In this document: positions 1,854-30,269 of the stretch, in pieces
How positions within the stretch are numbered: the stretch's first letter is position 1
Layout of the letters: each line of letters opens with the position of its first letter
IMG/VR virus record: IMGVR_UViG_3300031772_000052
Location: 1-50,772 of that record
Origin: a virus
DNA length: 50,772 nucleotides
Strand: one strand, 5' to 3'
Made by a program: the position numbers and the translations under genes
Notes under the pieces: generated by a model
Told to the model about the DNA's origin: nothing
Seen by the model: the letters and a program-made list of their open reading frames with translations, nothing else
The model's database searches: none

Positions 1854-2240
1854 ATGCAGCGCGTAATCGCTTCCTTCGCCGACGAACTCGTGAAGCTCGG
1901 CAAGGAAGACGACCACAAGCACGCCACCGGGGGCTATGCCAGGTCTGCCCTCATCGGCGCTCTGGCCACTCCGTTGGTAGGCTTGGCCGCGAACGTCGCC
2001 GGCCGGGCAATGAGAAATCGCACTCTCGCCAAGATGGTCAGCCCGAGTAAATTCGAAAAGCTCAAAGAGCTTGGACCGCTCATCGGACACGCTCCTCCGG
2101 TGCACCTGCCAGGAAGAACCCTTCGTCCTGCGATGGCCTATGACGATCTCGTTTCAAAGGCCGTGTCCGGTGGACTCACGGGCTCCGCAGTCCAGGCCGT
2201 CAGGGACAGCCTCTCGAAGAAAGAGCAGGCTGCTCAATGA
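1854..2240 (+). CDS. Unknown 128-aa protein with N-terminal ADELVKL helix
   Basis: The product starts MQRVIASFADELVKLGKED. The SFADELVKL segment is almost repeated at the start of the next gene (SFANELVKL) and resembles the start of the protein at 40888-41160 (SFLDELTKI). The middle (residues 27-50, ARSALIGALATPLVGLAANV) is a hydrophobic, small-residue helix that could touch a membrane. The rest is basic and helical. No known family is recognised. The Shine-Dalgarno sequence is poor. The stop overlaps the ATG of the next gene by 4 bp (ATGA), so the two are translationally coupled. A capsid-targeting or membrane role is speculation. Confidence 0.65.
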   Translation: MQRVIASFADELVKLGKEDDHKHATGGYARSALIGALATPLVGLAANVAGRAMRNRTLAKMVSPSKFEKLKELGPLIGHAPPVHLPGRTLRPAMAYDDLVSKAVSGGLTGSAVQAVRDSLSKKEQAAQ

Positions 2241-2482
2241 GCTTGTTTTCGGAGTCGTTCGCCAATGAGCTCGTGAAGCTTTCTTCGAACCTGGACCACG
2301 ACCTGGTCGAGCGAGAGAAGATGATCGACAAGGCCAGTGATGAGGCTCACGCCGAAGCGAAGAAAGACAAGTCGGATAAGCCCGAGGAATCTACCGCGGC
2401 CGCTCCGCTCGCCAAGACGCTGTCGACAATGGTCAGCCACGCCAAGCCGAATCATCTGCACATTCACTTCCATCAGAAGTAG
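2237..2482 (+). CDS. Small charged protein with N-terminal ANELVKL helix, 81 aa
   Basis: The ATG overlaps the upstream stop (ATGA). The protein starts MSLFSESFANELVKLSSNL, sharing the F-A-(D/N)-E-L-V-K-L helix with its upstream neighbour. A highly charged middle follows (REKMIDKASDEAHAEAKKDK), and the C-terminus is rich in histidine (NHLHIHFHQK). Its TAG stop directly abuts the TAG stop of the minus-strand gene that begins at 2483, forming TAGCTA with no spacer. Function unknown. The charged linker suggests a small accessory or virion-internal protein, but this is a guess. Confidence 0.65.
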   Translation: MSLFSESFANELVKLSSNLDHDLVEREKMIDKASDEAHAEAKKDKSDKPEESTAAAPLAKTLSTMVSHAKPNHLHIHFHQK

Positions 2483-3037
2483 CTAGACCGGCAGTTCCCT
2501 GAAGCTCTCTTTGCAGCTGACCATGAGCTGCGACGGGAACGTGCTCTCCCATTCGAAATCGTTCCATTCCGGAATCTTGTCGTCGGCATCGACGTGCAGC
2601 AGGAACTCAGAGCACACGACCATATTCGGCGAGGCCAGCGGATTCTTCACCTTGCGCCCGCGGCGCATCTCCCACCAGACCACAAGGAACCCGAAGAGAG
2701 CCAGGTAGTCGTAGCTCGCGTTCAGCATTCCGATAGCCTTGGCGACGCCGGTGGAAACGTCTGGAAGGACCAGAAACTTTTTGATGACCGTGTTCTTCTT
2801 GAGCCAGGCGCTCTCGAGCATCGGCTGAACGCCACCGACGGACGCCTGGAATACCATCGGCACTCCGTAGGGACAGATTCGAATCGCACAGTGACTCACG
2901 GGACTCTTGGTGAGCCAGCGAATCATTCGAGAGAGAAGATGATTCGACGTACTGAAGAGGACCACCACATCGCGATCTTCCGGTGTCGTTGGAGTTCGGT
3001 AGGGGCCGTTTGGATTCGTAGGCGTCTCGTCGGTCAT
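2483..3037 (-). CDS. NlpC/P60-like (permuted papain-fold) hydrolase
   Basis: The start at ATG 3037 (MTDETP) overlaps the stop of the upstream gene (ATGA); this is preferred over an in-frame start 30 bp further out. The 184-aa product has DVVVLFSTSNHLLSRMIRWL, then SHCAI with His49, and VVCSEFL with Cys142. The order His before Cys, with the 'CSE' signature, matches circularly permuted NlpC/P60 (YiiX-like) enzymes, which cleave peptide or amide bonds in cell-wall or lipid substrates. A hydrophobic helix (residues ~109-122, DYLALFGFLVVWW) lies between them. It follows a small membrane protein, so a cell-wall or lysis role is plausible. It is the last gene of its operon. The family call rests on motifs only. 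Confidence 0.6.
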   Translation of the reverse strand: MTDETPTNPNGPYRTPTTPEDRDVVVLFSTSNHLLSRMIRWLTKSPVSHCAIRICPYGVPMVFQASVGGVQPMLESAWLKKNTVIKKFLVLPDVSTGVAKAIGMLNASYDYLALFGFLVVWWEMRRGRKVKNPLASPNMVVCSEFLLHVDADDKIPEWNDFEWESTFPSQLMVSCKESFRELPV

Positions 3038-3333
3038 TGTCTGCTCACCAGCCAGTAGGCAAACCACACACCAAGGACTCCCATCAAAACGTCAGACACA
3101 TAAGCGTTGTACCAGCTCTCCGGGTGAAGCCATACCTGAGGCCATTTCTTCTCGGCGTAGCGTTCGAAGAACTCCCATCCGTAGGCGAGGAGCGCCATGA
3201 AGGCCATCGCATGAAGCAGAGGCTTTCTCGCGTACGCGAAACAGCTTCCGGCGAAGATCCAGAAGCAGAAGTGAATGACGCTCGACGTGTCTAAGAAGGT
3301 TTTGCCGGTTCTGATAGGTAGCAGCCAGTCCAT
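3034..3333 (-). CDS. Small integral membrane protein, 99 aa
   Basis: This protein has about three hydrophobic segments: residues ~17-35 (SSVIHFCFWIFAGSCFAYA), ~39-55 (LLHAMAFMALLAYGWEF) and ~80-97 (SDVLMGVLGVWFAYWLV). A conserved-looking polar stretch between the last two (WLHPESWYNAYVSD) suggests a functional motif rather than a simple holin. It overlaps the downstream NlpC/P60-like gene by ATGA, so both are made together. It could assist lysis or modify the inner membrane. I do not recognise the family with certainty. Confidence 0.65.
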   Translation of the reverse strand: MDWLLPIRTGKTFLDTSSVIHFCFWIFAGSCFAYARKPLLHAMAFMALLAYGWEFFERYAEKKWPQVWLHPESWYNAYVSDVLMGVLGVWFAYWLVSRQ

Positions 3334-7990: not shown

Positions 7991-8376
7991 TAGCCGATCG
8001 CCTGCAGGCTGACTCTCGCCATCAGCGCACTCGTCGCTCCACTGGTCCGAACAAGAAGAAGCTGTCTGTCCGTGATGATCATGGACTCACCTTCGGTCGT
8101 CACGAAGTCAGTCTCGTCGGTTCCACAGCACAGGATGAGCTCAGTTCCCTGGAGGTCTTTTTTTACGATGACCCAGTCGGTTTGTCCGCCAAGCTTGAGC
8201 TCGAAGGAGCGAATGATGTACGGGGAGCAGAGCTTGAAGTCGAACAGTCCCCCTGTTGCCGCGACTGGAAACGCCTCTATTCCATCACTTCGGACGGAGG
8301 TTCCCGGCGGAAGGGTCCCGTTGAAGTTCCCTCCGGCAGAGATTCGTTGTTCCATCGTCAGTATGCCGTAGGCCAT
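7990..8376 (-). CDS. Small virion-type protein, 128 aa
   Basis: This is a compact beta-rich protein (MAYGILTMEQRISAGGNF, FELKLGGQTDWVIVKKDL) without membrane segments. It overlaps the end of the large terminase gene by one base and the 264-aa gene by one base, so it is part of the same tightly coupled operon. Its size and composition fit a head-completion, decoration or fibre-base protein. No specific family is recognised. Confidence 0.6.
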   Translation of the reverse strand: MAYGILTMEQRISAGGNFNGTLPPGTSVRSDGIEAFPVAATGGLFDFKLCSPYIIRSFELKLGGQTDWVIVKKDLQGTELILCCGTDETDFVTTEGESMIITDRQLLLVRTSGATSALMARVSLQAIG

Positions 8377-10145
8377 TAGAATCTCCCCAGGACGATGTCA
8401 GCTGCGAGCTTGCAGTATGCCAGACTGTGTAGGCCGTCGTCCGGCTGGTCGATAGGGTGATCATACATCATCGTCCGGGTGCGCTCGTTGTACTCGACGT
8501 ACTCGGCGAGGATGTCTTTGGCGAAAGGTTCGAATGTTTCCCAGGCCGGAAAGAGAAACTGCTCTTCCTTGATGCTCTGGAAGATTCCAGACAGGACGGC
8601 ATTTCGGTTCACAATAAACTTGAACGAGTCGCCGTCCCAGCGCTTGCGTTCGCCGAGTGAGGTTGAGTAGGCAAACTGCATCACGCGATCGCGTCCGCGT
8701 TGCTGAAAGAGTCGGCTATTGATGCCCCATCCGTGCCCCCAGTCGACGCCTAGCATCTCGACGTTGAAGACCCCGCACCAGTGCAGGATGTCCGGCAGGA
8801 TGAGCTCGGGGTCGATTTCGCGGCCCACGTAGCGCTTCATGTAGAACGGCCAGAAGAGGTCGGGGTTTACGTAGGCGCCGATCGTCAAGATCGTCCAGGA
8901 AGCAAAGCGCTTCTTGCCGTGCTCCTGAGAACCTTCGGAGCGACCTTCACCCCAGTCGACGCCGGCAAAGCAGCGCAGTCCGTTGTGGACCGGATGGCGA
9001 CCGAAGGTAAATGCATGGCTGTCGATTCCGGTGACTTGCTTTGTAGGATGACAGCATCGCTCGATGTCCATCCTGGTGACTGGTGCCGATGCGCTGTCGT
9101 AGGAGACGCCGAGGATTTCGTTGTTGAACTTCGCTTCGGGCCACTTCTGCGAAGGAAGGACAATCTCTGTGTTCCAGGCGTCCTCGGTCTGCTTCCAGGG
9201 AACCATGAGCTGAGTGACGTGGTAGCCCTGGTAGAACTCACCGGGAGCCATCGTCACCCACTGCCCCGCGGCCGGGTTGATGGGCATCCCGCACTCGGGC
9301 TTGGAGCAGATGAGCCCCTTTTTTCCGATGTTCCTGGCGTCGAGAAGGTTCCAGTAGCGCGGACTATGGCGATCGCACGGGACCAACCATTCGTTCTGCG
9401 TAGACCAGCGCCAATATTCTTCGAGGGTATTCGAGAAGGTCAGCGGGGTTCCAGCGATCAGCTCGCTGCCGGCGACGCCGGCGCTGAGCAAAGACGCAGA
9501 CAGTGACTGCGAAATGACCTTGATGTTGTCCTTGAGTAGATCCTGGGCCTCGTCGAAGAAGACTCGACTGGCGGGAATTCCACGGGCTCGAGCTGGGGTC
9601 AAAAAGGCGTACCGAAGAAACATGTACGACCCGTTCGACAGCGTCTTTTCAAAGACCTGGTCGATGACGGTCTTGTCGATGAGGCTTTTGACGATCCAAG
9701 GCGAGTCCATCAGCGTCGGACGCAGTTTTTCGTTCGAGTACTGCCGTGTCTGCAGCGCCGACGGCGACACGTAGAGACTGCGCCACTGTGGATGAATGAT
9801 CGATTCGGTCACCTGTAGGATTGCAATCGTCGTGGACTTCGACACCTGACGAGAACACTTCATCACGACGCGCCGGTCGTTGTTGTTGTAGACCGGAAGC
9901 ATGAAGGCGTGGTTGTCGAGGCGGAGCGGCTTTCCTAGGTGATAGATGATCGCCTGTGCGATATCGCTCTTTCTTCCGTCAAAGAACTCGTGCCCGGACT
10001 CGTCCTTTTTGATTTCCAGGCCAGGGGCCCACTTGTACAGGTCGGACCAGTCGTAGCGAACAAAGCTTTCAATCGGCCGCTGGACATCTGGTATGTCCCA
10101 GTTGGCGCCCGCTTCGTCGTCCGTGGAATCATCAAGTGTCGACAC
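8376..10145 (-). CDS. terL: Terminase large subunit (packaging ATPase/nuclease)
   Basis: This 589-aa motor pumps DNA into proheads and cuts it at packaging. Residues 97-105 (CSRQVSKST) are the Walker A site, where the usual terminase pattern is preceded by VVMK. Residues 195-202 (VFFDEAQD) are Walker B with the catalytic Glu. A Cys/His cluster (C257DRH, C280...C285) suggests a zinc site as in GpA-type terminases. The RNase H-like nuclease follows, with acidic motifs GVDWGEG (~395), LGVDWGHG (~465) and a C-terminal DQPDDGLHSL. The start is GTG at 10145, overlapping the upstream TAG (TAGTG). The length is normal for the family. Confidence 0.93.
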   Translation of the reverse strand: MSTLDDSTDDEAGANWDIPDVQRPIESFVRYDWSDLYKWAPGLEIKKDESGHEFFDGRKSDIAQAIIYHLGKPLRLDNHAFMLPVYNNNDRRVVMKCSRQVSKSTTIAILQVTESIIHPQWRSLYVSPSALQTRQYSNEKLRPTLMDSPWIVKSLIDKTVIDQVFEKTLSNGSYMFLRYAFLTPARARGIPASRVFFDEAQDLLKDNIKVISQSLSASLLSAGVAGSELIAGTPLTFSNTLEEYWRWSTQNEWLVPCDRHSPRYWNLLDARNIGKKGLICSKPECGMPINPAAGQWVTMAPGEFYQGYHVTQLMVPWKQTEDAWNTEIVLPSQKWPEAKFNNEILGVSYDSASAPVTRMDIERCCHPTKQVTGIDSHAFTFGRHPVHNGLRCFAGVDWGEGRSEGSQEHGKKRFASWTILTIGAYVNPDLFWPFYMKRYVGREIDPELILPDILHWCGVFNVEMLGVDWGHGWGINSRLFQQRGRDRVMQFAYSTSLGERKRWDGDSFKFIVNRNAVLSGIFQSIKEEQFLFPAWETFEPFAKDILAEYVEYNERTRTMMYDHPIDQPDDGLHSLAYCKLAADIVLGRF

Positions 10146-16188: not shown

Positions 16189-17208
16189 TCAGACGGACGC
16201 TCGAGCGCCGCGGGCCGGGTTGTTCAGTGACTTCGCAACATCGGAATGGTAGGCCCGGTTTGATGGCGGCTTGGCCGTCGGCTGAGACTTCGCCTTGCCG
16301 CCTCCTGGTGACGGCGCCGTGCTCTTTGGCTTCGGATAGGCACCGACGTGCCAGGACGCCGAGGCGCTTGCTCTGAGAGCGCCGCTGGCCTTCGGCGGAG
16401 CCGGCATCTTCGGAGCTGCGGCGTGCTTCTCACTGCCGCTCTGTCCTCTCAAGTAGTCAATCAGCTTCTGAGCCAGGACCGTCGCAATGACCGGCGCAGC
16501 TGCAACGCCGGCGTGCATGGCAAAGCCCGGCGCCAGCTCCTTGATGACGGGCAGCGCTTCCATGCCAAGACGGCGTGCCCCCTTGGCAGCGCGATAGGTA
16601 GCGCGGGCCTCCTCGGCCATTCCGGGGAGCTGAGTCGCGGCGACCAGTGCCGGGGCGTGTTTGTGAACGAACTTTCGAGCATCACTGTCGTCTTCCCCTG
16701 GAGGAAGGAGCGACGCTCCCATAATGCCAGTCCTGGTGAGTTTTCCGGGGGTCGTCTCAAAGAGGTCGTGCACTAGATGCCAGGCATCGCCAAGGGCCGG
16801 CCTCGAAGCGTGCCCGAGCTCATGAAAAGCAACCGGCAAGGAGCTTCTGTTTAGCTGGATCAGCTCTTCGGGGGCTTCCCCGCGCCAGCCGATGGCGCTC
16901 ATGACGTTCTTCCCGGCACGGGACAGGACGTCGTTTCGCTGGAAGTAGGACTCTGGTCCGCCAAGAATAGGAACTGAGACGTTCTCGGCTGCGGCGAAGT
17001 CTCGAATCTTTTTCACGTCACGAGGAGCAAACTCAGCGATCTCCTCGATTGGCTTGCCGTAGGACTTCCCCGGTACCGCAGTTCCCGTCTGCAGCTTCTC
17101 GTGAAGCGCCGCAGGAATTGAAGGAAGGAGCCTCTTCAGCAGCTCATTTGAGCCAGCCATTGCGCCGGCGCCCATTATCGAAGACCCAAGATCCTGATGT
17201 CTTTTCAT
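16189..17208 (-). CDS. Probable zinc metallopeptidase (HELGH), 339 aa
   Basis: Residues 129-133 (HELGH, in VAFHELGHAS) match the HExxH zinc/catalytic signature of zincin peptidases. A third metal ligand is not identified with certainty. After the catalytic region the chain becomes helical (EEARATYRAAKGARRLG), with a hydrophobic segment near residues 220-245 (APGFAMHAGVAAAPVIATVLA), then a Pro/Ala/Ser/Lys-rich tail (APKMPAPPKASGAL) likely disordered. The ATG overlaps the RNA polymerase stop (TGATG), so they are made together. Possible roles are virion maturation, processing of the polymerase, or action in the infected cell. The enzymatic call is from one motif. Confidence 0.55.
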   Translation of the reverse strand: MKRHQDLGSSIMGAGAMAGSNELLKRLLPSIPAALHEKLQTGTAVPGKSYGKPIEEIAEFAPRDVKKIRDFAAAENVSVPILGGPESYFQRNDVLSRAGKNVMSAIGWRGEAPEELIQLNRSSLPVAFHELGHASRPALGDAWHLVHDLFETTPGKLTRTGIMGASLLPPGEDDSDARKFVHKHAPALVAATQLPGMAEEARATYRAAKGARRLGMEALPVIKELAPGFAMHAGVAAAPVIATVLAQKLIDYLRGQSGSEKHAAAPKMPAPPKASGALRASASASWHVGAYPKPKSTAPSPGGGKAKSQPTAKPPSNRAYHSDVAKSLNNPARGARASV

Positions 17209-20200
17209 CAGTACTTTCCTTTTTCGCCGAGGCCAAATTCAGCCCCGTAGGCGAACGCCGGAATCGGAGAGTAGTCGTGAATGTCGCTCTCGGCCCCCTT
17301 GGCGACTCCTTGAAGTATACCCTCCTCGAGTCGCTGATACCCGAGATGTGACATCCAATCGTTTCGCATGAACGGAATCTGACCCACGCCAGTCAAGAAC
17401 GGCTCGTGAATGATGGGCTTGTTGCCTACTTTGACCTCGTGTTTTCCGAGTCCAATGATTGCCTTGGCAACCTGGTCGCTGATGAGCGTGCCGTGTTTGA
17501 AGTGTCCCACGTCCTCTTTTAGCACCATGCCGACCGCGTCGTTGACCGGCTTCTTTCCGGTCAGCTTGCGATTGAAGTCTTCGACGACCGTGTACGGCGC
17601 AATGTCGCCGTGAATGAAGGCGCTGTCCCCGGGGTCGATGACCTTAGTCGTGTTGGTCACTGAACGAATCACGGTCTCGATGGCACGGCGCTTCAGGCTG
17701 ATGTCCTGCTCTTTGTAGGACTGTTGAATCTGGTCGGTGATGTAGTTCTGCGCCGGCAGCATACCCTTGAGCCGCTGGAGCTCCTGCGGCTTGATGAGGC
17801 CCAAGGAGATAGCGTCGCCCTTGGCAATCTTCGAACCCACACGAACCCTGGGGTCAACCAAGTCCTTCGGGATGTAGTGCTTCTTTCCGCCGATCCAAAT
17901 GTTCTCGCCAACGTTACCCGCCGCCTTGTCGATCTTCTCGACCTTGCCGTCATGCTCTGAAAGCGTGGCCTTGCTAGGGATGACCTTTGGCATCTTGAGC
18001 AGCTTGTCGATCTTGTCGTAGCCCGAGATGATTCCACGTGACCCTGAAGCGCCGCCGGAGTGGAACGTTCTCAGGGTCATCTGAGTCAGGGGCTCTGACA
18101 TTGCCTGCCCCGAGATGACACCCACGTTCTCCCCGAGCGGAGGCAGCTGACCGTTCTCGTAGAGACCGTAGCACTTCGAGCAGGTACCTTTCGGGGCATG
18201 GCAGGTGAGCGGAGAGCGAACTTCGACTTCTTTGACCTTGCGCTCGCGAAAGATGTTCATCAGTCCAGGCGTCACCACGGTACCGGCGTGGGCGATCACG
18301 GTCGGTCCGACCTTGATGTCTCGGGCCAGGAAACGGTCTTCTATGTCTTTCCCTTGACTCCCAACCAGTAGCTTGATGCCGTCGTGAGTTTTGCAGTCCG
18401 CATCGGAAATGATGTTCGTTCCCGAGGTCGCCAGGATGTCCTTCGTGAACGCTCCTGGGTGTTGGGTCTGTAGTTGCTTGTCAATGGTGACGCGACGAGC
18501 TCCGTAGGACGTCTGCCAGTACTCCGAGAACGGCAAGCCCTCGGCGTAGGAGTGCGTCACGGGGATCGAAGACGGATCTCCGTGGTGGTTGTCGGTCATC
18601 GTCGGCCCAGAGATGATCTGCTTGAGCTGGCCGATGTTGCCGCGAGCCCCAGAGTTCACCATCTGGAAGAAGTTGTTGTGCTGCGATGCGAGCTCGCCGG
18701 GCAGCGCTTTGTTGATTGCCTTGTCGGCGGCGCCAATGAGGTCGGTGGCTTCCTTTTGCTTGGCGGCGTCGAACTTGCCGTGCATGTGAAGCTTCGCCAC
18801 GTCTGCCTGCATTTTCTTGGCGATGCCCTGCGTGATAGGCAGCGCCGGCGTCAGGTCCTTTAGGCCGACCGTGAAACCGATTCGATAGGCATGCTGATCG
18901 CCGGCGTCCTTGAGTTTGTCGACAACCTTTCCAAAGTGCGTCGGGTCATTCTTGGCAAGGTCTTCGAACAAGTCCCTCAGACCGTTTTTGTCCATGAGCT
19001 TGTTCTTGAACTTGCCCCGGATTCCCTCCGGGAGCTCGGAAAGTATCTTGTCTCTCTCTGCAGGACTCCCCTTTGACAGCATGAAAAGCCCGAGCGCCGC
19101 GTCAGCGCCGGGGCTGATGACGATTCCGCCCGTGCCTGGATTATAGAGGTTCCGAGAGGGGTACATCTTGCGAGCTTCCTCGACAGCGTCGGTGAGCAGC
19201 GGCACGTGCACGGTCATCGTGTCGCCATCGAAGTCGGCGTTGAATCCCTTGACCACGAGCGGCGGAATCTTGACCGCGTCGCCGTCAGTGATCTTTGGAT
19301 TGAACGCCATGAGTCCGAACTTATGCAGCGTCGGCGCTCGGTTCAAAATGACCGGACGGTCCTTCATGACCGCCTCGAGCGACGATCTCGCCATGGTCGT
19401 GCGGGCGTCGTATTCGTTCATCGCCTCGTCGGGCTTTTTGCCAAGTCCGACCATCTGGCGAATCGCAAACGGCCGGAAGAGATTCCAGGCCATGTCCTCG
19501 GGAAGTCCAACCTCGTCGATGCCGAGCTTGGGTTCTGGGATGATCGTGCCGCGGCCGACTAGGTTCTGCTTGCGTCGGATGACTTCACGCTGGAAGAAGC
19601 CCTCCTTGGCAGGCTTTCCGGCGATCTGTTGGATGAACCCCTTTGGAGTTCGCGACTGCTGATAGAACGCAATCGGCTCGCCAAGTCCGGCCAGCGCCTT
19701 GGCGCCATTGTAGAGATTCTCCCGGAGCTCCGACTTCACGTCCTCTGGGATGTAGTGAACGCCGTGCTGCCACTTGAGCTCGTTGTTGATGAGACCCAGG
19801 TCGCGATAGAGCCAGTTGATTCCCTGAACCGACAACGAGCCATCTGGCAGCGGAGAGACCGGACGGTACTGAGGTGGGAGTACCGGGATCTTCGTTTGAA
19901 CGTAGGCGTCCTCGGGGCGAAGCTTGTTCTTCTTCAGCGCATGAAGGTATTTGAGCTGCTTGTTTGCCTTGTCGAGCTTCACCGGTGTCGATGCGGTCTT
20001 CGCTGCGTCAGTCCACTTCTTGATGTCTTCGTCGATATCGATGCGACTCAGCAGTTCCTTGACGGCGGCGCCGCCCGTGAGGCCGTGTTGTTCTGCGTTC
20101 CATTCGTTCGTCTTGGGATCGAAGAACAGCTTGCCGTTGACGAGACCCGAGAACTGTTTGTTGTTCATCCCGGTCAGGGTCTTGATGGGCGTCTCAAAGA

Positions 20201-23200
20201 CAGGATTCGGCATCGGCTCGGCCAGGTCAATGTGACCCCACTGGTCGTGGTCGCGACCGAAGATGATCGGGTCCATGAACCCGCCCTTTTCCTGCTGCAG
20301 GTCTTTGGCTCGAAGGAACATAGGCTCCTTCACCGCGCCTGAGCTCAGCCGAGTCGTTTCCTTGTCCGTCATCGGCTGGAGGACCATCTTGGAGCCGCGG
20401 CGCTCAACGTTGACGCCGGCGGCCTTCAGGTAGGACTCGAACTTCTTGTAGGCGAACGTTGGCTCAGGCGGTGGCTTAACCAAGCCCGCGGCACTACCGG
20501 CTCTCAGCCACTGCCAGAACTGGTCGTTCTTCGACGCCTTGTAGGTCGCCATCTCTCGAAGGTTCGCTCGAGCGCCGTGGGCCAACGCCGAGTACATCGT
20601 CAGAAGATCGACAGCCTTTGAACCTTCTTCGCCACCGCGGAGTGGTGCTCGGTTGATGTCGTACTTGCCTTCCTCGCGAGCAGAGAACTGGGACGTGGCC
20701 TGCTTGGTCAGCTTCAAGATGAACTGCGGACCGACGAGAACTTCGCCGATTGGTTTGTTCGTTGTTGGATCGAAGAGCAGTTCAGTGTCCTTGAGGTTGT
20801 GCTTTTTGAGGTCGTCCTTGACCTTCTGCGTGTAGTCCTCGTTCGAGAAGTTCTCGACGATGTAGGGCTTGCCGGTCTTTTCCGCAATCTTCGCCGCGGC
20901 GGTTTCAAGAATCTGCGACGGATTGATACGGGTCACGATGCCGTGCGGATTCAAGATGATGTCGATGGGCTTTCCGGCGGCGTCATGAGGAGACTCTCCG
21001 TCGGGAATGATCTTTGTGATGATGCCCTTGGCGCCGTGACGGTTCGTCAACTTGTCGCCAATCTGAGCGGGCTCGACGGTCTTGACGTAGACCTTGACCT
21101 TGCCAGCCGTTCGCACGACATCGACCACTTCTCCGTCGACCTCGTTGTCCCAGGTCTCTTTGAACGGTCGCTTGGGAGGAAGGCGCGTCAGCTTTGAAAG
21201 CTGAATCGAGTCCGGGTCGGTCTTGTTGTCCCGGACGCCGACCCACATCGGATCGCCCTTGTGAAGGACTTGCCCTTTTTTGACAACACCGTCTCCGTCG
21301 AGCTTTGCGACCTGGTTGTTGGTCAAGTCGTTCTGTCGCCAAGCGGTGTACTTGTTCATGGAGAGCTCGGCGTCTTTGTCGAGGGCGTCACCGAATTTGT
21401 ACATGTGCTCGCTTGAGAGCTTGGCCGCGGCGGACTCCGTGATGACGATGCCGTCCTCAAAGTTGTACCCCTTGAAGGGGACGTAGCCGGCGCGGAGATT
21501 GGTACCGATCGCTAGGTGACCATCTCTGGTGAAGTTCGAGTCAGCGATGACGTCGCCTTTTTTGACCTTGTGACCTGCTTCAACAAGCGGAACGGCGTGA
21601 AGGAACGCTTTGGAGTTCAGTGGGTAGTTGTTGAAAAGCGGCTGCTCGACGGAACCGTCCTTCGTCTTGATGTGAATTCGGTTCGCCGTGACCTTCTCGA
21701 TGACGCCGTCTTCCTTGGCGGAGATGGAGTATCCGCTGCCAATGTGCTTCTCGATGGTGTCCTTGCCGAGCTTGACCTGGACGAGCGGCGCCTCCCTATG
21801 AACGAGAGGAATGGCTTGCTCGAGCATCTTCGTTGCCATGAGGCCGCGGACGCCCTGGGCCGAAGGGAGAAAAGGAATCACGTTTGACGAGATAGAGAAC
21901 GCCTGCTTCGCATTCGGCAGTACCAGGTCAACGTCCGCAGCGTTGACCACCTGCATGTCGCCGCCGGCCATCGCCTTGACCTTGGTTCCAACGAACTTGC
22001 CTTCTCGGAACTGGTCCGGCATCGCGACGATCTTCGACTGGAAGTCCGCCGGCGAAACACTCACGTACTGCTTGGTCTTCGGGTCATAGAGCCTAGCGAG
22101 AAGCTGCCCCTTGTTGTTCTTCGAAGCCCCGAGCGGGAGCTGCATCACTGTTCCGATGTTTCCAGATTCTGGCGTGTGAATCGGGTCGATGAAGCCGAGG
22201 TGCGAAGGGTGCACCATGCGCTCTTCTTCTTTGATGGCATGCTCGGATTGAGCGCCACCCTCGCCGCTGATGGTGACCTTCGACAGCCCGTTCAGGATGT
22301 GCAGCGGGTTGTTCTGCTCGGGAGTATGCGAAAGATCTGTCTGCGTAAAAAACGTATCGAAGATGGGTGTAAACTCCTGGGCGGCAACGACACGGCTGAC
22401 CTGTGACGGCAGGTTTCTTCGGTTGTTGAGTCGAGAGGCGATCTTCCGACGGAACTCTTGAATCTTCGGAGCAAAACCACCGTCCTCGGTGATCATGCGC
22501 TCCTTGATGAAATCCGCGACAGACAGGATCTTCTTGAACTCGATCGATTGCCGGTCGTCGGGCTGTCGCTCTCCTCGATAGGTTCTCAGAAGTTCATGGG
22601 CTCCACGGACGAGAATGTCCGGAGTCACACGCTCAATCGGAGATCCGAGGGTTTTTTGCGTCACCTCGGGGGCAAGCTTCTTGTCGGCCAGGAACTCAGC
22701 GAATCCCTTGGCCGCCGACTCCGGAGAGTCGTACTGCTCGCCCGTAAAGAACGCGGCGACCTTCTTTGCCGCTGTCGCTTGACGGGCCGGAAGAAATCCC
22801 TTGTTGGCGTCGAGAAGATCCTGTCCCCATTGCTTCGCCATCATCCCGTCGCTGACGCCCATTTGCGACAAGATTGGATAGAGCGGTTGCTTGCCCTGCT
22901 TTTTGACCAAGTAGAACACGCCGCTTTCTTGGTCGAGGGCGATGTCAAACGGCTTTCCGGGAATATTGAACTCGGTCTTGTACTGCGCCTTGTTCGCCAG
23001 CTGCGTGACGTAGACACCCGGCTTTCGCCGGAGCTGATTGTTCACCTGGTAGTGCTTGCCGCCAATGATAAAGCTGCCGATGTCGGTCCCTTTTGGAAGG
23101 ACCGCGACCTTCACCTTGTTCGCTTCTGAGATGACCTTCCCGGTTTGGCGGTCGAGGAGCTCGAGCGAGGCGTAGACCGGGACGCCCCAGGTCTTGTCGT

Positions 23201-23375
23201 TACGAACGGCTTGCTTCTGGGACTCCCAGTCAGCCGGATCAACCGTGTCATCGATCCAGACCTTGTTCGCTTTTAGCTGTCGGTACCGTCCGTCAATGTT
23301 TAAGGCCTTGGTGAACGCCGAAACGGTGTCTTGCTTCATGCGTTCGAACTGACTCTGATAATCAAATGTCTCCAT
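17208..23375 (-). CDS. Single-chain beta-beta' RNA polymerase, 2055 aa
   Basis: The polypeptide holds RpoB-type motifs followed by RpoC-type motifs. Beta side: HPSHLGFIDPIHTPES (~391), GYNFEDGIVITES (~638) and IGDKLTNRHGAKGII (~774). Beta' side: GHIDLAEPMPNPVFETP (~1049), TKIPVLPPQYRPV (~1163), RPVILNRAPTLHKFG (~1342), active-site NADFDGD (~1381, three Mg-binding Asp), SGARGNIGQLKQ (~1577), and the trigger-loop region around YGARRVTIDKQLQT (~1626). The beta' zinc-2 ligands remain (DADC~1663 and CHAPKGTCSKC ~1727-1737); the N-terminal zinc-1 cysteines of bacterial beta' are missing. It is about 700 residues shorter than E. coli beta plus beta'. ATG 23375 (GAGAG, 5-base spacer) is preferred to GTG 23381. 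It catalyses DNA-directed RNA synthesis; no alpha or omega gene is seen. A sigma-like gene is at 45713-46558. Confidence 0.95.
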   Translation of the reverse strand: METFDYQSQFERMKQDTVSAFTKALNIDGRYRQLKANKVWIDDTVDPADWESQKQAVRNDKTWGVPVYASLELLDRQTGKVISEANKVKVAVLPKGTDIGSFIIGGKHYQVNNQLRRKPGVYVTQLANKAQYKTEFNIPGKPFDIALDQESGVFYLVKKQGKQPLYPILSQMGVSDGMMAKQWGQDLLDANKGFLPARQATAAKKVAAFFTGEQYDSPESAAKGFAEFLADKKLAPEVTQKTLGSPIERVTPDILVRGAHELLRTYRGERQPDDRQSIEFKKILSVADFIKERMITEDGGFAPKIQEFRRKIASRLNNRRNLPSQVSRVVAAQEFTPIFDTFFTQTDLSHTPEQNNPLHILNGLSKVTISGEGGAQSEHAIKEEERMVHPSHLGFIDPIHTPESGNIGTVMQLPLGASKNNKGQLLARLYDPKTKQYVSVSPADFQSKIVAMPDQFREGKFVGTKVKAMAGGDMQVVNAADVDLVLPNAKQAFSISSNVIPFLPSAQGVRGLMATKMLEQAIPLVHREAPLVQVKLGKDTIEKHIGSGYSISAKEDGVIEKVTANRIHIKTKDGSVEQPLFNNYPLNSKAFLHAVPLVEAGHKVKKGDVIADSNFTRDGHLAIGTNLRAGYVPFKGYNFEDGIVITESAAAKLSSEHMYKFGDALDKDAELSMNKYTAWRQNDLTNNQVAKLDGDGVVKKGQVLHKGDPMWVGVRDNKTDPDSIQLSKLTRLPPKRPFKETWDNEVDGEVVDVVRTAGKVKVYVKTVEPAQIGDKLTNRHGAKGIITKIIPDGESPHDAAGKPIDIILNPHGIVTRINPSQILETAAAKIAEKTGKPYIVENFSNEDYTQKVKDDLKKHNLKDTELLFDPTTNKPIGEVLVGPQFILKLTKQATSQFSAREEGKYDINRAPLRGGEEGSKAVDLLTMYSALAHGARANLREMATYKASKNDQFWQWLRAGSAAGLVKPPPEPTFAYKKFESYLKAAGVNVERRGSKMVLQPMTDKETTRLSSGAVKEPMFLRAKDLQQEKGGFMDPIIFGRDHDQWGHIDLAEPMPNPVFETPIKTLTGMNNKQFSGLVNGKLFFDPKTNEWNAEQHGLTGGAAVKELLSRIDIDEDIKKWTDAAKTASTPVKLDKANKQLKYLHALKKNKLRPEDAYVQTKIPVLPPQYRPVSPLPDGSLSVQGINWLYRDLGLINNELKWQHGVHYIPEDVKSELRENLYNGAKALAGLGEPIAFYQQSRTPKGFIQQIAGKPAKEGFFQREVIRRKQNLVGRGTIIPEPKLGIDEVGLPEDMAWNLFRPFAIRQMVGLGKKPDEAMNEYDARTTMARSSLEAVMKDRPVILNRAPTLHKFGLMAFNPKITDGDAVKIPPLVVKGFNADFDGDTMTVHVPLLTDAVEEARKMYPSRNLYNPGTGGIVISPGADAALGLFMLSKGSPAERDKILSELPEGIRGKFKNKLMDKNGLRDLFEDLAKNDPTHFGKVVDKLKDAGDQHAYRIGFTVGLKDLTPALPITQGIAKKMQADVAKLHMHGKFDAAKQKEATDLIGAADKAINKALPGELASQHNNFFQMVNSGARGNIGQLKQIISGPTMTDNHHGDPSSIPVTHSYAEGLPFSEYWQTSYGARRVTIDKQLQTQHPGAFTKDILATSGTNIISDADCKTHDGIKLLVGSQGKDIEDRFLARDIKVGPTVIAHAGTVVTPGLMNIFRERKVKEVEVRSPLTCHAPKGTCSKCYGLYENGQLPPLGENVGVISGQAMSEPLTQMTLRTFHSGGASGSRGIISGYDKIDKLLKMPKVIPSKATLSEHDGKVEKIDKAAGNVGENIWIGGKKHYIPKDLVDPRVRVGSKIAKGDAISLGLIKPQELQRLKGMLPAQNYITDQIQQSYKEQDISLKRRAIETVIRSVTNTTKVIDPGDSAFIHGDIAPYTVVEDFNRKLTGKKPVNDAVGMVLKEDVGHFKHGTLISDQVAKAIIGLGKHEVKVGNKPIIHEPFLTGVGQIPFMRNDWMSHLGYQRLEEGILQGVAKGAESDIHDYSPIPAFAYGAEFGLGEKGKY

Positions 23376-23454
23376 GAGCACTCTCAGTGTTGCGGAATAA
23401 GTTCATTGAAGGCAAACCTATTCATCACGGAACTTTACCAAGGAGAGCGGCCAG
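23376..23454. promoter_or_regulatory. Divergent region between RNA polymerase and + membrane gene
   Basis: This 79-bp gap must start transcription of the polymerase operon (minus) and of the 152-aa gene (plus). On the + strand TGCGGAATAAG (23391-23401) lies 54 bases before ATG 23455 and resembles the CGGGTATAAGA before ssb. An AGGAG for the + gene lies at about 23441-23445. On the minus strand no strong sigma-70 -35/-10 pair stands out. Confidence 0.35.
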
Positions 23455-23963: not shown

Positions 23964-24315
23964 ACGTATCACCGGCGCCGACTTCTCGCTCTTGAGACCA
24001 TTCACGCGGAGCTTCGGATTTCTCGACAGATTCCGTCGCTGGCTTGACCGGCTTTTCCCACCACTGAAGCATCATGTAGAGATCTTCGGTGGTGGTGCGA
24101 ATCTGATTGTCGCCGTCGCCCTCAACGGTCGTGGTCTTTCGTGTGAACTGCTGAATGTGTTCGATCGTGATTCCGCTCGAGCGATCGTTCGCCTGAGTCC
24201 GAATCTCCTCATAGGCCTCGAGTTCGTCCGCTTCGAACAGGTTGAAGTTCTTGACGTGGAACTTCCCGAGGTCCCTTTTTCCGCCTGGGGCCATGAGCGG
24301 CGTGACCTTGCTCAT
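23962..24315 (-). CDS. Small acidic protein downstream of portal, 117 aa
   Basis: The sequence is hydrophilic and helical (FEADELEAYEEIRTQANDR), with a Glu/Lys-rich tail. It starts by ATGA overlap with the portal stop and is the last gene of the portal operon. Its location is suggestive of a head- or connector-associated protein. No family is recognised. Confidence 0.65.
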   Translation of the reverse strand: MSKVTPLMAPGGKRDLGKFHVKNFNLFEADELEAYEEIRTQANDRSSGITIEHIQQFTRKTTTVEGDGDNQIRTTTEDLYMMLQWWEKPVKPATESVEKSEAPREWSQEREVGAGDT

Positions 24316-26321
24316 ATCGGACTGTTCTTTCTCGTCGGAGGCTTCATCTGCGGCAGAGGCTTATTGGCATCCTGTGCTTCGCCAGCGGTCTGACCCGGCG
24401 CCATTCCAGCCAGGAGCTGCTGCACCAAGTTCGCCATGTGCGGCATCTTGGAACGGAGCTCGTTGAGTACTTTGGTGCGCTCAGCCGGCGCAAGCTTTGC
24501 GACCCGCGTAGCCCACTGCTTGGCGATCCGCGAAGCATCGAGCTCGACAACCTTGCCACCGCCAGACTGGGTCCCGGCCTCCCCTTGCACGTTCGCCTGG
24601 GCCGACGACGCCTGTTGCATAGCGGCCTGCTGGGCCATCTGGGCGTCCTGGCCCGGCTGCATTTCCTGCATGCCCGGCAATCCTTGCGGCTGCTCGTCGG
24701 GCTGGCCAGGCTGCGCCTGCCCGGGCTGACTTGCCCCAGCTGGCGCTGGAGTCGCGCCAGGCTGCTGTGGGGCGTTCGGATCTACCGCGGGCTGAACCCC
24801 AGAGATCTGCGAGGCATCTTGCATCGCGGCCTGGGCACGGGCCTGGTACTTAGCCTGCTCGATCGAAGCCTCGCCCTGGGCCTGGGTCTGAGCCTTCATC
24901 ATCATCGCCTGGACGCGGTTACGGTCCTCGGTCTCGCCTTGGATGGCCTTCAGCTCTTCGTCGTAGTCGAATCCGAGCTCGGTGAGCATCGTGTGGTCCG
25001 AGATCTTGTTGGCGGCGTTCAGCTGGATGACCATCTGCTTGCGCTGGATGTCGTCCGCCATCTTGAACTCGGTGAAGCCGATGTTCACGTCGGGCAGGTT
25101 CAGGTAGAGCCGAATGCGGTTCTTGGTCCAGTTGACGAACCGAAGAAGCAATCGGCGATACATGAGGAACTGGTTTTCGAGCGTTCGAAGGGACACGGAA
25201 CTACCCGACCAGGAGAGTCCGCCGAAGACGAACTCGATCGGCACGCCCATGCCGCCCGTGATTTCCTTGTTCGTCACTTCGATCTCAGGACCAAGGAGCA
25301 GAGCTCGACCGTCACCGCCGAGGCGCTCAAAACCAAGCGGAACTGCCACGACCGAGATGTAGTTCGGGTCGACGCGCCAGCGACGGATCTCTTCTTGAAC
25401 CGTGCCCTGCCAGTTGCTCAGGTTGACGTGCTGGTAGGGGTCCTGTTGGCCGTTGGCCTGAGGGAAGATGAACTCAAGAGGCAGGATGCGCTGAAGGGCG
25501 ATCGCTTCCTGTGCCCGGCGAAGAACGTACAGGTAGAACATGCGACTCATCGAATGAATGATGAGCGGCTTGCCCCATCCCATGTCCTGCTCGGCGAGCG
25601 TCGGGCGCTTGAAGTGGAAGATGTTCTGCTCGGAAAGAGCGATGTCCCGCTTCATCTTGAGCGCCTCGAGGAACACCTTTGGAATGTCGACGAGTAGCTC
25701 GCGAGTCCCGTCCATGATCGCCCGCTTGACCTTGTGCGGGATCTTGTAGCGGTACTTCGATTTGCCGGTGACCGGGTTGTAGTAGATGTCGATGTTCTTC
25801 GGGTCCCAGCGAACGAAGTTGATTCCCGTTCGGTCCTTGATCGGGACGTCGACAATCTCACCGACGCCGGTTTTTCCGCAGCCGGTGCAGGTAAATTGGA
25901 ACTCGAAGTTGACGAACCGGAAGTCGAATGCCGTGTCTGACAAGCGGTCCGACTTGCCGCATTCTTTGCATTTCAGCCAGCGACTGAAGGGGAAGTTCAT
26001 GGAGATGAAGGCGTTGCCGTAACAGAAGTAGTCGAGGCCGATCTCAATGAGAAACGGCTTCATGTTGAGCGTTTCCTCGAGGACTTCTTTCCAGCCATCG
26101 CGGACGTGCTTGAGCTCGGCGTTGTAGATGAAGTCAGTGACCGGGTACTCGGCGATCTTCGTGACGACCGACCCAAACATCGGGTCCTTGTAGAAGAAGT
26201 ACTGACACCACCGGAAGAGCTCCTTCACGGTAGGCGGCATGTACGTCTGGGCAATATCGAAGAACGGGGACGGATAGATCGTCCCCCTTCTCCTGTCTAC
26301 TCCAGACCCGAAATCAGCCAT
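24312..26321 (-). CDS. Portal protein with inserted zinc ribbon, 669 aa
   Basis: The portal forms the ring through which DNA enters the head. The call rests on the overall pattern: an N-terminal loader region (YMPPTVKELFRWCQYFFYK), wing segments (DPYQHVNLSNWQGTVQEEI), the FVNWTKNRIRLYLNLPDVNI segment, and a helical C-terminus. An insertion at residues ~118-148 has CKEC...CTGC (Cys118, 121, 145, 148), a probable zinc ribbon not usual in portals. The C-terminal ~130 residues are Gln/Ala/Pro-rich (QQPGATPAPAGASQPGQAQ) and low-complexity. It is coupled to the 117-aa gene and lies in a head cluster. Confidence in 'portal' is good but not based on a search. Confidence 0.75.
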   Translation of the reverse strand: MADFGSGVDRRRGTIYPSPFFDIAQTYMPPTVKELFRWCQYFFYKDPMFGSVVTKIAEYPVTDFIYNAELKHVRDGWKEVLEETLNMKPFLIEIGLDYFCYGNAFISMNFPFSRWLKCKECGKSDRLSDTAFDFRFVNFEFQFTCTGCGKTGVGEIVDVPIKDRTGINFVRWDPKNIDIYYNPVTGKSKYRYKIPHKVKRAIMDGTRELLVDIPKVFLEALKMKRDIALSEQNIFHFKRPTLAEQDMGWGKPLIIHSMSRMFYLYVLRRAQEAIALQRILPLEFIFPQANGQQDPYQHVNLSNWQGTVQEEIRRWRVDPNYISVVAVPLGFERLGGDGRALLLGPEIEVTNKEITGGMGVPIEFVFGGLSWSGSSVSLRTLENQFLMYRRLLLRFVNWTKNRIRLYLNLPDVNIGFTEFKMADDIQRKQMVIQLNAANKISDHTMLTELGFDYDEELKAIQGETEDRNRVQAMMMKAQTQAQGEASIEQAKYQARAQAAMQDASQISGVQPAVDPNAPQQPGATPAPAGASQPGQAQPGQPDEQPQGLPGMQEMQPGQDAQMAQQAAMQQASSAQANVQGEAGTQSGGGKVVELDASRIAKQWATRVAKLAPAERTKVLNELRSKMPHMANLVQQLLAGMAPGQTAGEAQDANKPLPQMKPPTRKNSPI

Positions 26322-26331: not shown

Positions 26332-27792
26332 CTAATCGTTCTTGTCGCCGGAGATGAGATCTCGTCCGGTCGCCAATCGATGAACCCCGAGAACGCCAAC
26401 GCCGGAAGAGACGAGCTGGCTTTTCTCTGCCGAGCTAAGCGCTCCCCATCCCTCGCGATGAAACTTAGCGAGCGTGTCAGTGACCTTGCCAGCAGGAGCG
26501 CCTTTTTTGCCCTTGCCGCCACTGCTTGGCTTTCCGGCCGTCCCCTCTGGTGATGGCGGTGGAGTTGCCGCCTTGGCCGCCTCCTCTGATCCGGGATGAA
26601 GCGGGACTTTCTCTTTTTGCCCGAGTACGTTAATTTTTTCAGGTGCCTTCCCCGGGTAGTCCTTCATGAATTCCCGCGGAAGACCGGCGTTTGTCCCAGA
26701 CGACGGGGCCGTCTGGTTCTCGGTGGGCGAATGGGCGCCAGGCTTGGATTCCGGTGCAGTGGTCTTCGCCTTGACTGGCTGCGGACCCTGCATTTTTGAC
26801 ATCGGATTTGGAGACTTGTGTCCTGGCTGATTCGCTGCGCCTGCTTGCGGAACGCCAGTAGTTGACCCCGGCATTGCAGCTGACGATCGAAGATTCTGCG
26901 ACTGCTTACCGGCAGAGAATTTTGCCTTTGCCGCGTCCAGCTTCGTAGCGTGAGCTGCCCGCTGTTCGCGAAGTTTCATGAGATTGCTCTCGTGATAGCC
27001 ACGCGCCGCCGGGTTTCCGCCAGGCGCCTTGGCCTGCGCAAGGGCACCTTCATGGTGAGCGATTTGCTCGTCGAGGCTAGAAAGTCCGCGCTGTCCTTTT
27101 TCGAGGCTTCCCTTGCGAAACTTCGAAACAACGTCCTCTGCCGTAGATCGAGCGCCACCGGCGACGCCGGAGCCAATGGCCTTGGCTCTCTGGGCAACTC
27201 CTGCGCCGCCTTCTCCTACGACCCTGCCAACGTCTCGGGCGAACATCCCCGGAGCCTTTGCGAGCTGACCGCCTGAAAGCTCAGCAAGCGACTTTGCGCC
27301 AATGCCGCCGGTTGCCTTTCGAAAAAGATTGCTGGCTCCTTCGATTACTCCGGTGGCAAGGCTCGCTTCCTTGGCGAGCTCGTAGCCAATTTTGGCGATC
27401 TCGCAGTCGATGAACTCATGATACGCCTCGTGATGAGACGCCTTCATCTGCGTCGCGGCCGACTGCATGTCACGCTCGATCCCATAGGCTGCCACTTTTT
27501 CAAAAACCACTGGCAGTACTTCCGTTGGAATGTTGGAGTCGCGACACATGGAAACGAAATAGTCACATGCTCGCTTCGTAAGACCCAGAGAGCTTCCTAC
27601 CGGTCCTGTCTCTGCGAGAATGATCAGGTGGCCATCGATGTCACCAGAGAGCTTCTCGAATCCAGTAAGTTGCGCTGATGCGGTCTTGACCATCGGAGCG
27701 ACTCGAAGAGGGGGCTTCGCTGTCTCTTCCGCGTGCTTTTGGAAGAAGTCGTTTCCTGGCTCGTCGAAGAGGTAATCGAAGTGGTTCTTCAT
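26332..27792 (-). CDS. Head-cluster structural protein, 486 aa
   Basis: Of the possible starts, ATG 27792 has GGAG seven bases upstream; an ATG at 27798 overlaps the upstream stop (ATGA) and would add two residues. Residues ~45-180 are globular and include LGLTKRACDYFVSM and EVLPVVFEKVAAYGIERD. The C-terminal ~250 residues are Gly/Pro/Ala/Lys-rich and likely disordered (KSPNPMSKMQGPQPVKAK). It lies between the 61-aa protein and the portal. A scaffold, internal head protein or portal-associated role is possible. No family is recognised. Confidence 0.65.
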   Translation of the reverse strand: MKNHFDYLFDEPGNDFFQKHAEETAKPPLRVAPMVKTASAQLTGFEKLSGDIDGHLIILAETGPVGSSLGLTKRACDYFVSMCRDSNIPTEVLPVVFEKVAAYGIERDMQSAATQMKASHHEAYHEFIDCEIAKIGYELAKEASLATGVIEGASNLFRKATGGIGAKSLAELSGGQLAKAPGMFARDVGRVVGEGGAGVAQRAKAIGSGVAGGARSTAEDVVSKFRKGSLEKGQRGLSSLDEQIAHHEGALAQAKAPGGNPAARGYHESNLMKLREQRAAHATKLDAAKAKFSAGKQSQNLRSSAAMPGSTTGVPQAGAANQPGHKSPNPMSKMQGPQPVKAKTTAPESKPGAHSPTENQTAPSSGTNAGLPREFMKDYPGKAPEKINVLGQKEKVPLHPGSEEAAKAATPPPSPEGTAGKPSSGGKGKKGAPAGKVTDTLAKFHREGWGALSSAEKSQLVSSGVGVLGVHRLATGRDLISGDKND

Positions 27793-27794
27793 CT

Positions 27795-27980
27795 TCATGC
27801 TCCGTCTGCCCACCAGGGGCCTCTTCCGCGTCCTTTAGCTGGATCAAAACCCTGTGCTTCCATCTCGGCGGCTTCTTTTTCGATTTCGACTCGAACTCTG
27901 TCCGCGGCTTCGGCTCGAAGATCTGAAATCATCTTCGACATTTCGCGTGCAGCTTTGACCGCCTCATCGTGGTCCATCAT
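27795..27980 (-). CDS. Small helical protein, 61 aa
   Basis: A 61-aa helical, charged protein (AREMSKMISDLRAEAADRVR) with a Gly/Arg-rich tail (KGRGRGPWWADGA). The ATG overlaps the upstream stop (ATGA). Its TGA overlaps a potential ATG of the following gene. Its small size, coiled-coil look and place before the portal suggest a small head or scaffold protein. Real because it fills the gap between two coupled genes and is consistent in frame. Confidence 0.65.
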   Translation of the reverse strand: MMDHDEAVKAAREMSKMISDLRAEAADRVRVEIEKEAAEMEAQGFDPAKGRGRGPWWADGA

Positions 27981-29110: not shown

Positions 29111-30256
29111 CTACGCCTCGCCGGTTGCCAGCTGCTTGATGAGCACCTTCTCGGTATCGGGAAGGGACTCGAAGATCTCCATCGCGTTCTTGGAGAACTG
29201 ATTGGCGAAGGCTTCGCCGAGATAGCCCTTCAGCTTGCCACCGGAGGCGACCTTTTTGAGATCGGCTTCGGTAAGGGTGTGTCCGTCCACCTCCGCGGAC
29301 CAACCGGTCGCCGTCTTGTCCATCGTCGACGCATAGGCGTCGGTAAGGCCGCGGTCGTAGTACTTCTTGAGTCCCGTCGACTCATCGAAGACGTCGAGCG
29401 CTTTCGCCATGGTCTCTGGATCGGTCTCGCTGATCGATGCGGCGAGCTTGTCGAGAACGTCACGAGCGCCCTTGTTCGTCGGCAGAAGTGACTTGCGCTG
29501 TTCGAGGTGCGCATCGAGATGCTGGTTCCAGTTTTGCGATGCCCACTTGTCGAGCAGCTTGCTGTCGCCAACGTCAACGCCAAGTTCTTCGGCGCGGTTT
29601 TTGACGGAGCTTGCGAAGCGATGCCGGTGCTCAGCGGAAAAATCCATCGCGTACTTGTCGAAGTACGCGGCCGCTTTCTTCACGTGACTCTCGTCCGGCA
29701 TGGCGTACTTGCGAATCACCGAGCCGTCACCGGTCTGCACGACGAGAGCGAAGTGTTCGTCTGGCATTTGCATCACCGCATTCATCTCGACCGCGGCCGC
29801 TTCCTTCGACAGAAGTTCCTTCTGGGCGAGCTTGCGCAGCATCCAACCGCCCTCGGAGCCCTCGACAAACGAGTTCGAGTCGCACTCGCCCGGTTCAACT
29901 CTCGCCGCATAGGCGTCGACGAGGCGAGACGAAGGGACTGCATACGCAACGCAGGCCTCCTTGATGAACTTCGCAGCGATAAAGCGTGCGGGGAAGGCTA
30001 GCTTTTCGTGGTTCGCTTGGAAGTACTGGGCGCTCAGCCAGGCGTTTCCGGGATCATTCACCGGGAACTTGCGCATGACGTTGGCTCGTTTGGTGATCAT
30101 CACCAGTCCGAAGTCCGAATCCTTGAGCTCCTCGAGGCGGTCCTCGGAAAGGGTCTCAAAAGGAGCCCTCGACAAGGTCCCCGGCATAGCCAATTTGGCC
30201 ATCAGTTCCTTAGAACTGTCATCGTAGAAGTCGAGTACATCTGCCGAAACGCCCAT
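29111..30256 (-). CDS. Head-cluster protein with two copies of ~70-aa module, 381 aa
   Basis: ATG 30256 has GGAGG six bases upstream; this decides the start over an upstream ATG at 30295. Residues ~49-118 and ~169-240 are two copies of one module. Copy 1 reads FGLVMITKRANVMRKFPVND, AQYF and VDAYA; copy 2 reads FALVVQTGDGSVIRKYAMPD, AAYFDKY and LDKWAS. Aligned patterns are F-[GA]-L-V-x-x-T, R-K-[FY], and Y-F, about 120 residues apart. The C-terminal ~130 residues are helical. It is the first gene of the portal operon, as many scaffold or capsid proteins are, but I do not identify it as capsid protein. Confidence 0.7.
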   Translation of the reverse strand: MGVSADVLDFYDDSSKELMAKLAMPGTLSRAPFETLSEDRLEELKDSDFGLVMITKRANVMRKFPVNDPGNAWLSAQYFQANHEKLAFPARFIAAKFIKEACVAYAVPSSRLVDAYAARVEPGECDSNSFVEGSEGGWMLRKLAQKELLSKEAAAVEMNAVMQMPDEHFALVVQTGDGSVIRKYAMPDESHVKKAAAYFDKYAMDFSAEHRHRFASSVKNRAEELGVDVGDSKLLDKWASQNWNQHLDAHLEQRKSLLPTNKGARDVLDKLAASISETDPETMAKALDVFDESTGLKKYYDRGLTDAYASTMDKTATGWSAEVDGHTLTEADLKKVASGGKLKGYLGEAFANQFSKNAMEIFESLPDTEKVLIKQLATGEA

Positions 30257-30269
30257 TTCGTGCCTCCGA

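Follow-up and report, generated by a model that had tools for sequence, protein, structure and literature searches.

The window analysed here is the whole of IMG/VR record IMGVR_UViG_3300031772_000052, a stretch of 50,772 bases that is probably a fragment. Its genes lie mostly on the minus strand and include a terminase, a portal, RNA polymerase β and β′ regions, a sigma-like protein and a baseplate module. Identities to Salmonella phage Arash (OQ632216) of 32% for the portal, 34% and 30% for RNA polymerase β and β′ and 27% for the terminase, together with tail genes matching Arash gp6, gp8, gp10, gp13 and gp14, indicate that the phage is a distant relative of Arash. The features considered below are as follows.

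1854–2240, plus strand: tagged 128-aa protein, MQRVIASFADELVKLG..., made up of the tag, a linker (variable in length within the family) and a conserved body
1875–1901, plus strand: tag FADELVKLG, residues 8–16 of the 1854 protein
2237–2482, plus strand: tagged 81-aa charged protein, MSLFSESFANELVKLSS...
2258–2284, plus strand: tag FANELVKLS, residues 8–16 of the 2237 protein
8376–10145, minus strand: terminase large subunit, phrog_675 type, clade-defining
17208–23381, minus strand: RNA polymerase β and β′ regions in a single 2057-aa frame
24312–26321, minus strand: portal protein
26332–27813, minus strand: 493-aa protein beside the portal gene, with five phi-x-K-x-A sites, all in the first 150 aa
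27977–29110, minus strand: conserved protein of the head module, 377 aa, with a single site (FDKTA, residues 20–24)
29111–30295, minus strand: 394-aa head-module protein with 13 phi-x-K-x-A sites against 1.0 expected (V allowed first)
40888–41160, minus strand: tagged protein of 90 aa, encoded between the baseplate-J gene and a gp14-like tail gene
41086–41100, minus strand: second site LVKQA, a canonical [LIMF]xKxA, residues 21–25 of the 40888 protein
41122–41148, minus strand: tag FLDELTKIG, residues 5–13 of the 40888 protein
45713–46558, minus strand: sigma-factor-like protein, Arash Gp10 homologue, with N-terminal LTKES

The tag is seen as SFADELVKL at residues 7–15 of the 1854 protein, as SFANELVKL at residues 7–15 of the 2237 protein and as SFLDELTKI at residues 4–12 of the 40888 protein. 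The first-pass annotation had reported F-x-[DN]-E-L-x-K-[LI] near the N-terminus of these three proteins, and each instance was confirmed; its interval, 1854–2482, encloses two of the tagged genes and leaves the one at 40888 outside. The pattern F..EL.K[LI] has exactly three matches among the 576 six-frame window ORFs of at least 25 aa. Shuffling the 45 called window genes (16,407 aa) gave an expectation of 0.0040 motif matches anywhere and zero in the first 15 positions over 3000 rounds; this greedily called gene set contains two of the three tagged genes, a longer ORF that overlaps 40888 having taken its place, and the three observed matches are those of the six-frame ORFs.

The 1854 and 2237 proteins are otherwise different, as had been claimed, with 22 of 81 aligned residues identical even when the tag is included. 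Tagged orthologues of the 1854 protein are encoded by L008 (37% identity) and L011 (31%), both of which came from terminase relatives; an IMG/VR search for direct 1854 relatives confirmed none. FADELVK is the sole long contiguous block invariant across the three orthologues, and it is followed by a linker of very variable length and then by the conserved body. This block is kept even though the linker and body have diverged, and in this respect the tag resembles an address label that can be detached. No Pfam or PHROGs family was found at E 0.1 for any of the three tagged window proteins, and the isolate collection returned chance-level matches only when queried with the 1854 and 40888 proteins. 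A gene at 2483–3067 (minus strand), convergent with the tagged pair, encodes a 194-aa protein with a weak phrog_1128 match (2.7e-6). Its assignment as an untagged C92 amidase was not supported (E 0.027; no Pfam family).

Recurrence of the tag and the proteins that carry it

A search of relatives had been proposed from the window alone, and it was productive. The DNA pattern TTYNNNRAYGARYTNNNNAARHTN gave 22 sites in 8 of 11 records (the window and ten terminase relatives), with G006 and G007 contributing the same five sites twice, and the reversed pattern gave 0. A looser DNA pattern gave 101 matches against 1 for its reverse in 26 related large-phage contigs; each contig had been picked because it contained one match or more, which leaves about 75 of the 101 matches beyond that selection. 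Further copies, for which the first-pass annotation proposed to search, are many in relatives, and in the window itself only the three matches occur. An IMG/VR scan for FADELxK[LI]A found 107 stretches against 65 for the reversed peptide, and an ATG lies at most 12 codons upstream in 36 of 85 distinct matches as compared with 5 of 33 reversed-peptide matches. The matches are also biased to N-termini: with start codons assigned by rule, an ATG lies 3–12 codons upstream in 56 of 71 matches versus 20% of called-gene phenylalanines, and a Shine-Dalgarno-like start precedes 27 of the 71 versus 7%. A chance origin of the motif is rejected on the strength of the shuffling, the reversed-pattern controls and this N-terminal bias.

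Over 169 N-terminal cases the tag consensus is [AGS]-F-x-D-E-L-x-K-[IL]-[AGS], with variable x positions, and the N-terminal form in the clade is M-x(1-10)-[AGS]-F-x-D-E-L-x-K-[IL]-[AGS]. The residue before the phenylalanine, which neither collection pattern fixes, is A, G or S in 50 of the 51 tags outside the collection-scan patterns. At F+8 these 51 tags carry A in 27 cases, G in 11 and S in 9, a count restricted to this subset because the collection-scan matches require A there. Neither Arash nor Vibrio phage D69, the nearest isolates examined, has a match to a looser form of the tag pattern, and the isolate collection yielded nothing with a 30-aa tagged N-terminus as query. With the terms tried, the open-licence literature yielded no paper on an FxDELxK tag or a K-x-A prohead site.

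What kinds of protein carry the tag? Their sizes run from about 60 to more than 700 aa, and several of their genes adjoin head or tail genes. A Pfam scan of nineteen tagged proteins identified one SNF2-type helicase (Helicase_C, 1.4e-13), one glycine-zipper protein (1.4e-5) and two Peptidase_C92-like amidases (1.6e-10 and, just under the cut-off, 6.7e-6), along with one kinase-like and one zinc-peptidase-like match that were weak and under their cut-offs; 13 of the 19 had no meaningful match. The two amidases are 29% identical, and against the Peptidase_C92 gathering score of 27 bits the one in L011 lies above (41.7) and the one in L080 just below (26.7). A short N-terminal element common to otherwise unrelated proteins, as in the T4 capsid-targeting sequence, is thus apparent at the sequence level. 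Three arrangements of tagged genes were recorded alongside. On the minus strand of L011 (7886–8967), adjoining tagged genes encode a 1854-family protein and the C92-like amidase. On the minus strand of L126 (8992–9807), a tagged 271-aa protein has a stretch, HEAAH, like that of zinc peptidases (Zn_peptidase_2, E 0.013, below the cut-off). On the minus strand of G018 (150981–163260), five tagged genes fall within about 12 kb near a tail-hydrolase gene and could possibly form a cargo island.

A K-x-A element in tags, head proteins, the protease and helicases

At its end the tag carries a second element, [LIMF]-x-K-x-A, which resembles a protease site and was not part of the first-pass annotation. 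The window tags end in KLG, KLS and KIG, which are less typical than KIA. Members of the 40888 family in G002 and G005 occupy the same gap between gp13-like and gp14-like genes and are likewise tagged, and a by-eye comparison places VRKIA (G002) and MVKRA (G005) at the position of LVKQA. In all of them FxDELxK ends in G or S and a canonical KxA follows about ten residues downstream, which suggests that targeting and cutting can be separate.

The same element is concentrated in head proteins. In ten Arash head proteins (gp218–226, a contiguous block, plus gp242, added for its site count) [LIMF]xKxA was observed 44 times against 5.0 expected (8.7-fold), and LxRxA and LxKxS stood at about 1-fold. 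The counts were 29 versus 24.8 expected in 61 other well-detected Arash virion proteins and 14 versus 15.9 in 103 undetected ones. This census covered 218 coding sequences, omitting short genes and gp225.1 and taking an unnamed row of the published Table 2 as gp138. In the clade, 30 hand-picked head proteins held 137 sites versus 20 expected, and the other 1791 proteins 542 versus 344; the 6.9-fold value for the head set is inflated because the set was picked partly from a KxA ranking, and the contrast between the Arash head set and the 103 undetected Arash proteins is the fairer one. Thirteen other motif variants in the 30-protein set ranged from 0.7- to 3.0-fold, KxS reaching only 2-fold and KxG showing no enrichment.

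Within the window, the 29111–30295 protein is 65–70% identical in close relatives and is hence constrained; core protein, MCP-like protein and inner body are its candidate roles. The 26332–27813 protein belongs to a family of 409–493 aa with five to seven sites per member, N-terminal in 5 of 5 members (four homologues have seven sites each, all beginning within the first 163 aa), and its N-terminal part is a candidate long propeptide. In the Arash major capsid protein gp226 and four homologues, a fifth and weaker homologue being left out, K-x-A ends at residue 27–29; the homologues from G017 and G019 lack a hydrophobic residue two positions before K. The sigma-like protein has LTKES in the window and LTKQA and LEKEA at the corresponding position in G005 and G019, and its Arash homologue Gp10 accounts for 467 virion spectra (PMC10585845).

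The candidate processing enzyme is encoded in the head module. Arash gp222 and clade homologues match phrog_18299, "head maturation protease", in 3 of 3 cases tested (E 2e-7 to 9e-6), and the profile match spans the catalytic region. An AlphaFold2 model (pLDDT 68, ordered domain 37–228) matches many viral proteins annotated as prohead protease, including Bacillus phage G Gp19 at 8e-14; a fold search of the PDB with the model found nothing at E 0.001, and a sequence search of the PDB remained at chance level. H106 and S162 are invariant in the 14 aligned members and are presumably the catalytic residues of a His/Ser-type enzyme. The element phi-x-K-x-A lies just before the protease domain in 10 of 15 homologues (residues 13–28) and just after it in 15 of 15 (residues 191–258), in flanks modelled with low confidence. 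The 14 aligned proteases all share K239 and A241 in the post-domain site, and nearly all share K27 in the pre-domain site. Variants of the latter are HIKMA in L106, L122 and L079, and KVG in L108, which suggests that G may be tolerated. A T4 gp21-type (S77) protease was considered as the processor and rejected: the PF03420 profile is absent in 25 of 27 records, and the two that contain it have only weak terminase matches to this clade. The phrog_675-type terminase is present in 25 of the 27 records tested, in 23 of these at E 1e-23 or better.

A further boundary is marked by the helicases. The tagged G018 helicase shares 39% identity with Arash Gp217 across the whole domain and is, on this comparison, an orthologue of a virion-packaged protein; Gp217, with 38 unique peptides and 1148 virion spectra, is among the most-detected Arash virion proteins (PMC10585845, Table 2). 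Since Gp217 itself carries no tag, packaging can occur without one. All seven clade helicases compared, each from a different contig, have a phi-x-K-x-[AG] that ends 8 or 9 residues ahead of a conserved HQ, although their N-terminal extensions differ in sequence and length, and Met1 of the Arash helicase lies 8 residues before the same HQ. In G018, L368 and L389 an FxDEL-like tag ends in the boundary site; the site stands alone in G013, G019 and L146; and in L366 an N-terminal tag, FRDELEKIS, lies about 250 residues upstream of a separate boundary site, LTKKA. Cutting after A or G would, as we read it, give the mature helicases an Arash-like start. The peptide coverage in Table 2 for Arash (100% for multi-site gp223) neither shows nor excludes propeptide loss (PMC10585845).

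One alternative hypothesis is that the tag and the KxA element are docking helices that are never cut and that serve one virion partner, such as the core, the virion RNA polymerase or the tail. Recurrence of the tag helices on many proteins would suit this hypothesis, as would the packaging of a tagless helicase in Arash and the G or S, in place of A, at the ends of the window tags. However, KxA is found on either side of the protease domain, in parts of the model that have low confidence; in the helicases its distance from the domain is constant and coincides with the start of the tagless orthologue; and in the 409–493-aa family it is confined to the N-terminal part. Each of these is a mark of a cleavage site, and we consider permanent docking unlikely.

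A probable head-targeting propeptide and its relation to known systems

We hypothesize instead that the tag is a head-targeting propeptide, similar in action to the T4 capsid-targeting sequence, that is trimmed by a prohead protease of K-x-A specificity; on the sequence evidence, all of it comparative, this is the probable explanation. The first-pass annotation had suggested such a T4-like N-terminal targeting signal, a proposal that is supported in part and is the best-supported reading given the recurrence of the tag, its K-x-A element and the packaged helicase orthologue, although confidence in the helix then envisaged is low, the 1854 protein having modelled poorly (pLDDT 49). The tag would join the assembling prohead core and draw unrelated cargo into the capsid, namely the SNF2-type helicase, C92-like amidases, the glycine-zipper protein and many small proteins. 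Its end would be, or overlap, the [LIMF]-x-K-x-A recognition site of the phage's own prohead protease, which would presumably cleave the bond after A (or G/S) and so free the cargo from the tag. The same protease would trim itself, the N-terminus of the major capsid protein and the multi-site core proteins. Trimmed cargo would be left free in the head with the DNA and may later be ejected into the host. The three window proteins would, by this model, be targeted to the capsid; whether they would be cut at KLG, KLS and KIG is less certain.

Entry into the core could involve binding to the scaffold, possibly through likeness to a core-protein helix. In G003, G007 and G009 the scaffold-like gene adjoining the protease contains (D/S)AGRIMARG, with D before it and FxDEFxKLAG after it, so that a tag-like stretch, also absent from the first-pass annotation, appears to lie within the scaffold-like protein of close relatives. 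In the gene after the protease the resemblance to the tag is clear in these 3 close relatives and weak or absent in 5 distant contigs, and a scaffold helix was accordingly rejected as the universal source of the tag.

It may be asked whether the tag addresses some other compartment or partner in the infected cell, such as the membrane, a phage nucleus or a replication centre. The helicase, amidases and glycine-zipper protein could act inside cells or at membranes, but the K-x-A element is common to the tag and to head-assembly proteins, the orthologue of the tagged helicase is abundant in Arash virions, and several tagged genes adjoin head or tail genes; we regard a destination other than the head as improbable. 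Coincidence, or functionless spread of one N-terminal stretch by duplication, might be argued from the mere three window copies, two of them in adjacent genes, but is scarcely credible given 0.004 expected matches, 169 N-terminal tags with varied x positions and a 1854 family that keeps the tag as linker and body diverge.

The propeptide model invites comparison with T4, in which the capsid-targeting sequence of IPI, IPII and IPIII, removed as a propeptide by gp21, is likewise a short N-terminal stretch on unrelated proteins (PMC9026906). As described there, it directs proteins to the core, and its end lies within or overlaps the site of the prohead protease, features that the clade tag would share; targeting and processing map to different residues, and processing can be blocked while targeting persists (PMC9026906). 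The two systems differ in sequence, in the site (a K-x-A element here, a cut after Glu in T4) and in the protease, that of the clade matching phrog_18299. For this reason the tag is described as CTS-like and not filed as a T4 CTS. The proteases of T4, phiKZ and SPN3US are reported to cut after Glu (PMC5694885, PMC10052503), and those of SPN3US and phiKZ at A-x-E and S/A/G-x-E motifs (PMC10052503, PMC5694885, PMC13282480). SPN3US and phiKZ resemble the clade in being large phages with a packaged multisubunit RNA polymerase, in long multi-site propeptides (candidates here) and in a protease site at the end of the enzyme's own domain; most SPN3US propeptides exceed 100 residues, and the published descriptions cited here do not portray that phage as having a short tag on many cargo proteins (PMC10052503, PMC5694885, PMC13282480).

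Arash itself has a homologous portal, terminase, RNA polymerase, sigma factor, baseplate, protease, major capsid protein and helicase and the same [LIMF]xKxA enrichment in its head module. It differs in that no FxDELxK tag was found, β and β′ are separate genes and the helicase starts at the predicted mature end. The single polymerase frame of the window has NADFDGD around residue 1381, and long fused frames also occur in the relatives compared; Arash has the two genes gp206 and gp216, and its polymerase homologues are packaged in virions (PMC10585845). A GTDB scan with the RNA polymerase, aimed at the host, recovered no relative. The K-x-A code may extend to Bacillus phage G, whose gp19 (L400, 16840–17742), a protease-like protein that the model matched structurally with 30% identity, has five [LIMF]xKxA sites versus 0.5 expected on both sides of the domain; its major capsid protein gp27 and most neighbours differ in lacking the enrichment.

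A bolder form of the model, which we hold at slightly less than even odds, is that the cargo packaged by a broad and almost uncultured large-phage lineage is set by two codes, a portable zip code and one for K-x-A maturation. A protein of any kind, once it had gained the roughly 16-residue N-terminal tag, would then enter the prohead core and undergo trimming by a protease of a specificity unlike those of T4, phiKZ and SPN3US, in a code that may reach Bacillus phage G. The tag would copy a core-protein helix, and cargo would thereby enter by scaffold mimicry. If the propeptide model is right, a second and independent capsid-targeting code, with a new protease specificity, would exist beside that of T4, the scaffold-like gene would be named in close relatives, and a short tag would be at hand for loading foreign proteins into large capsids. 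The capsid cargo of these large phages, which is probably what they inject first, would become readable from sequence alone, and since most tagged proteins have no known domain, the tag would also offer a route to unknown effectors of early infection.
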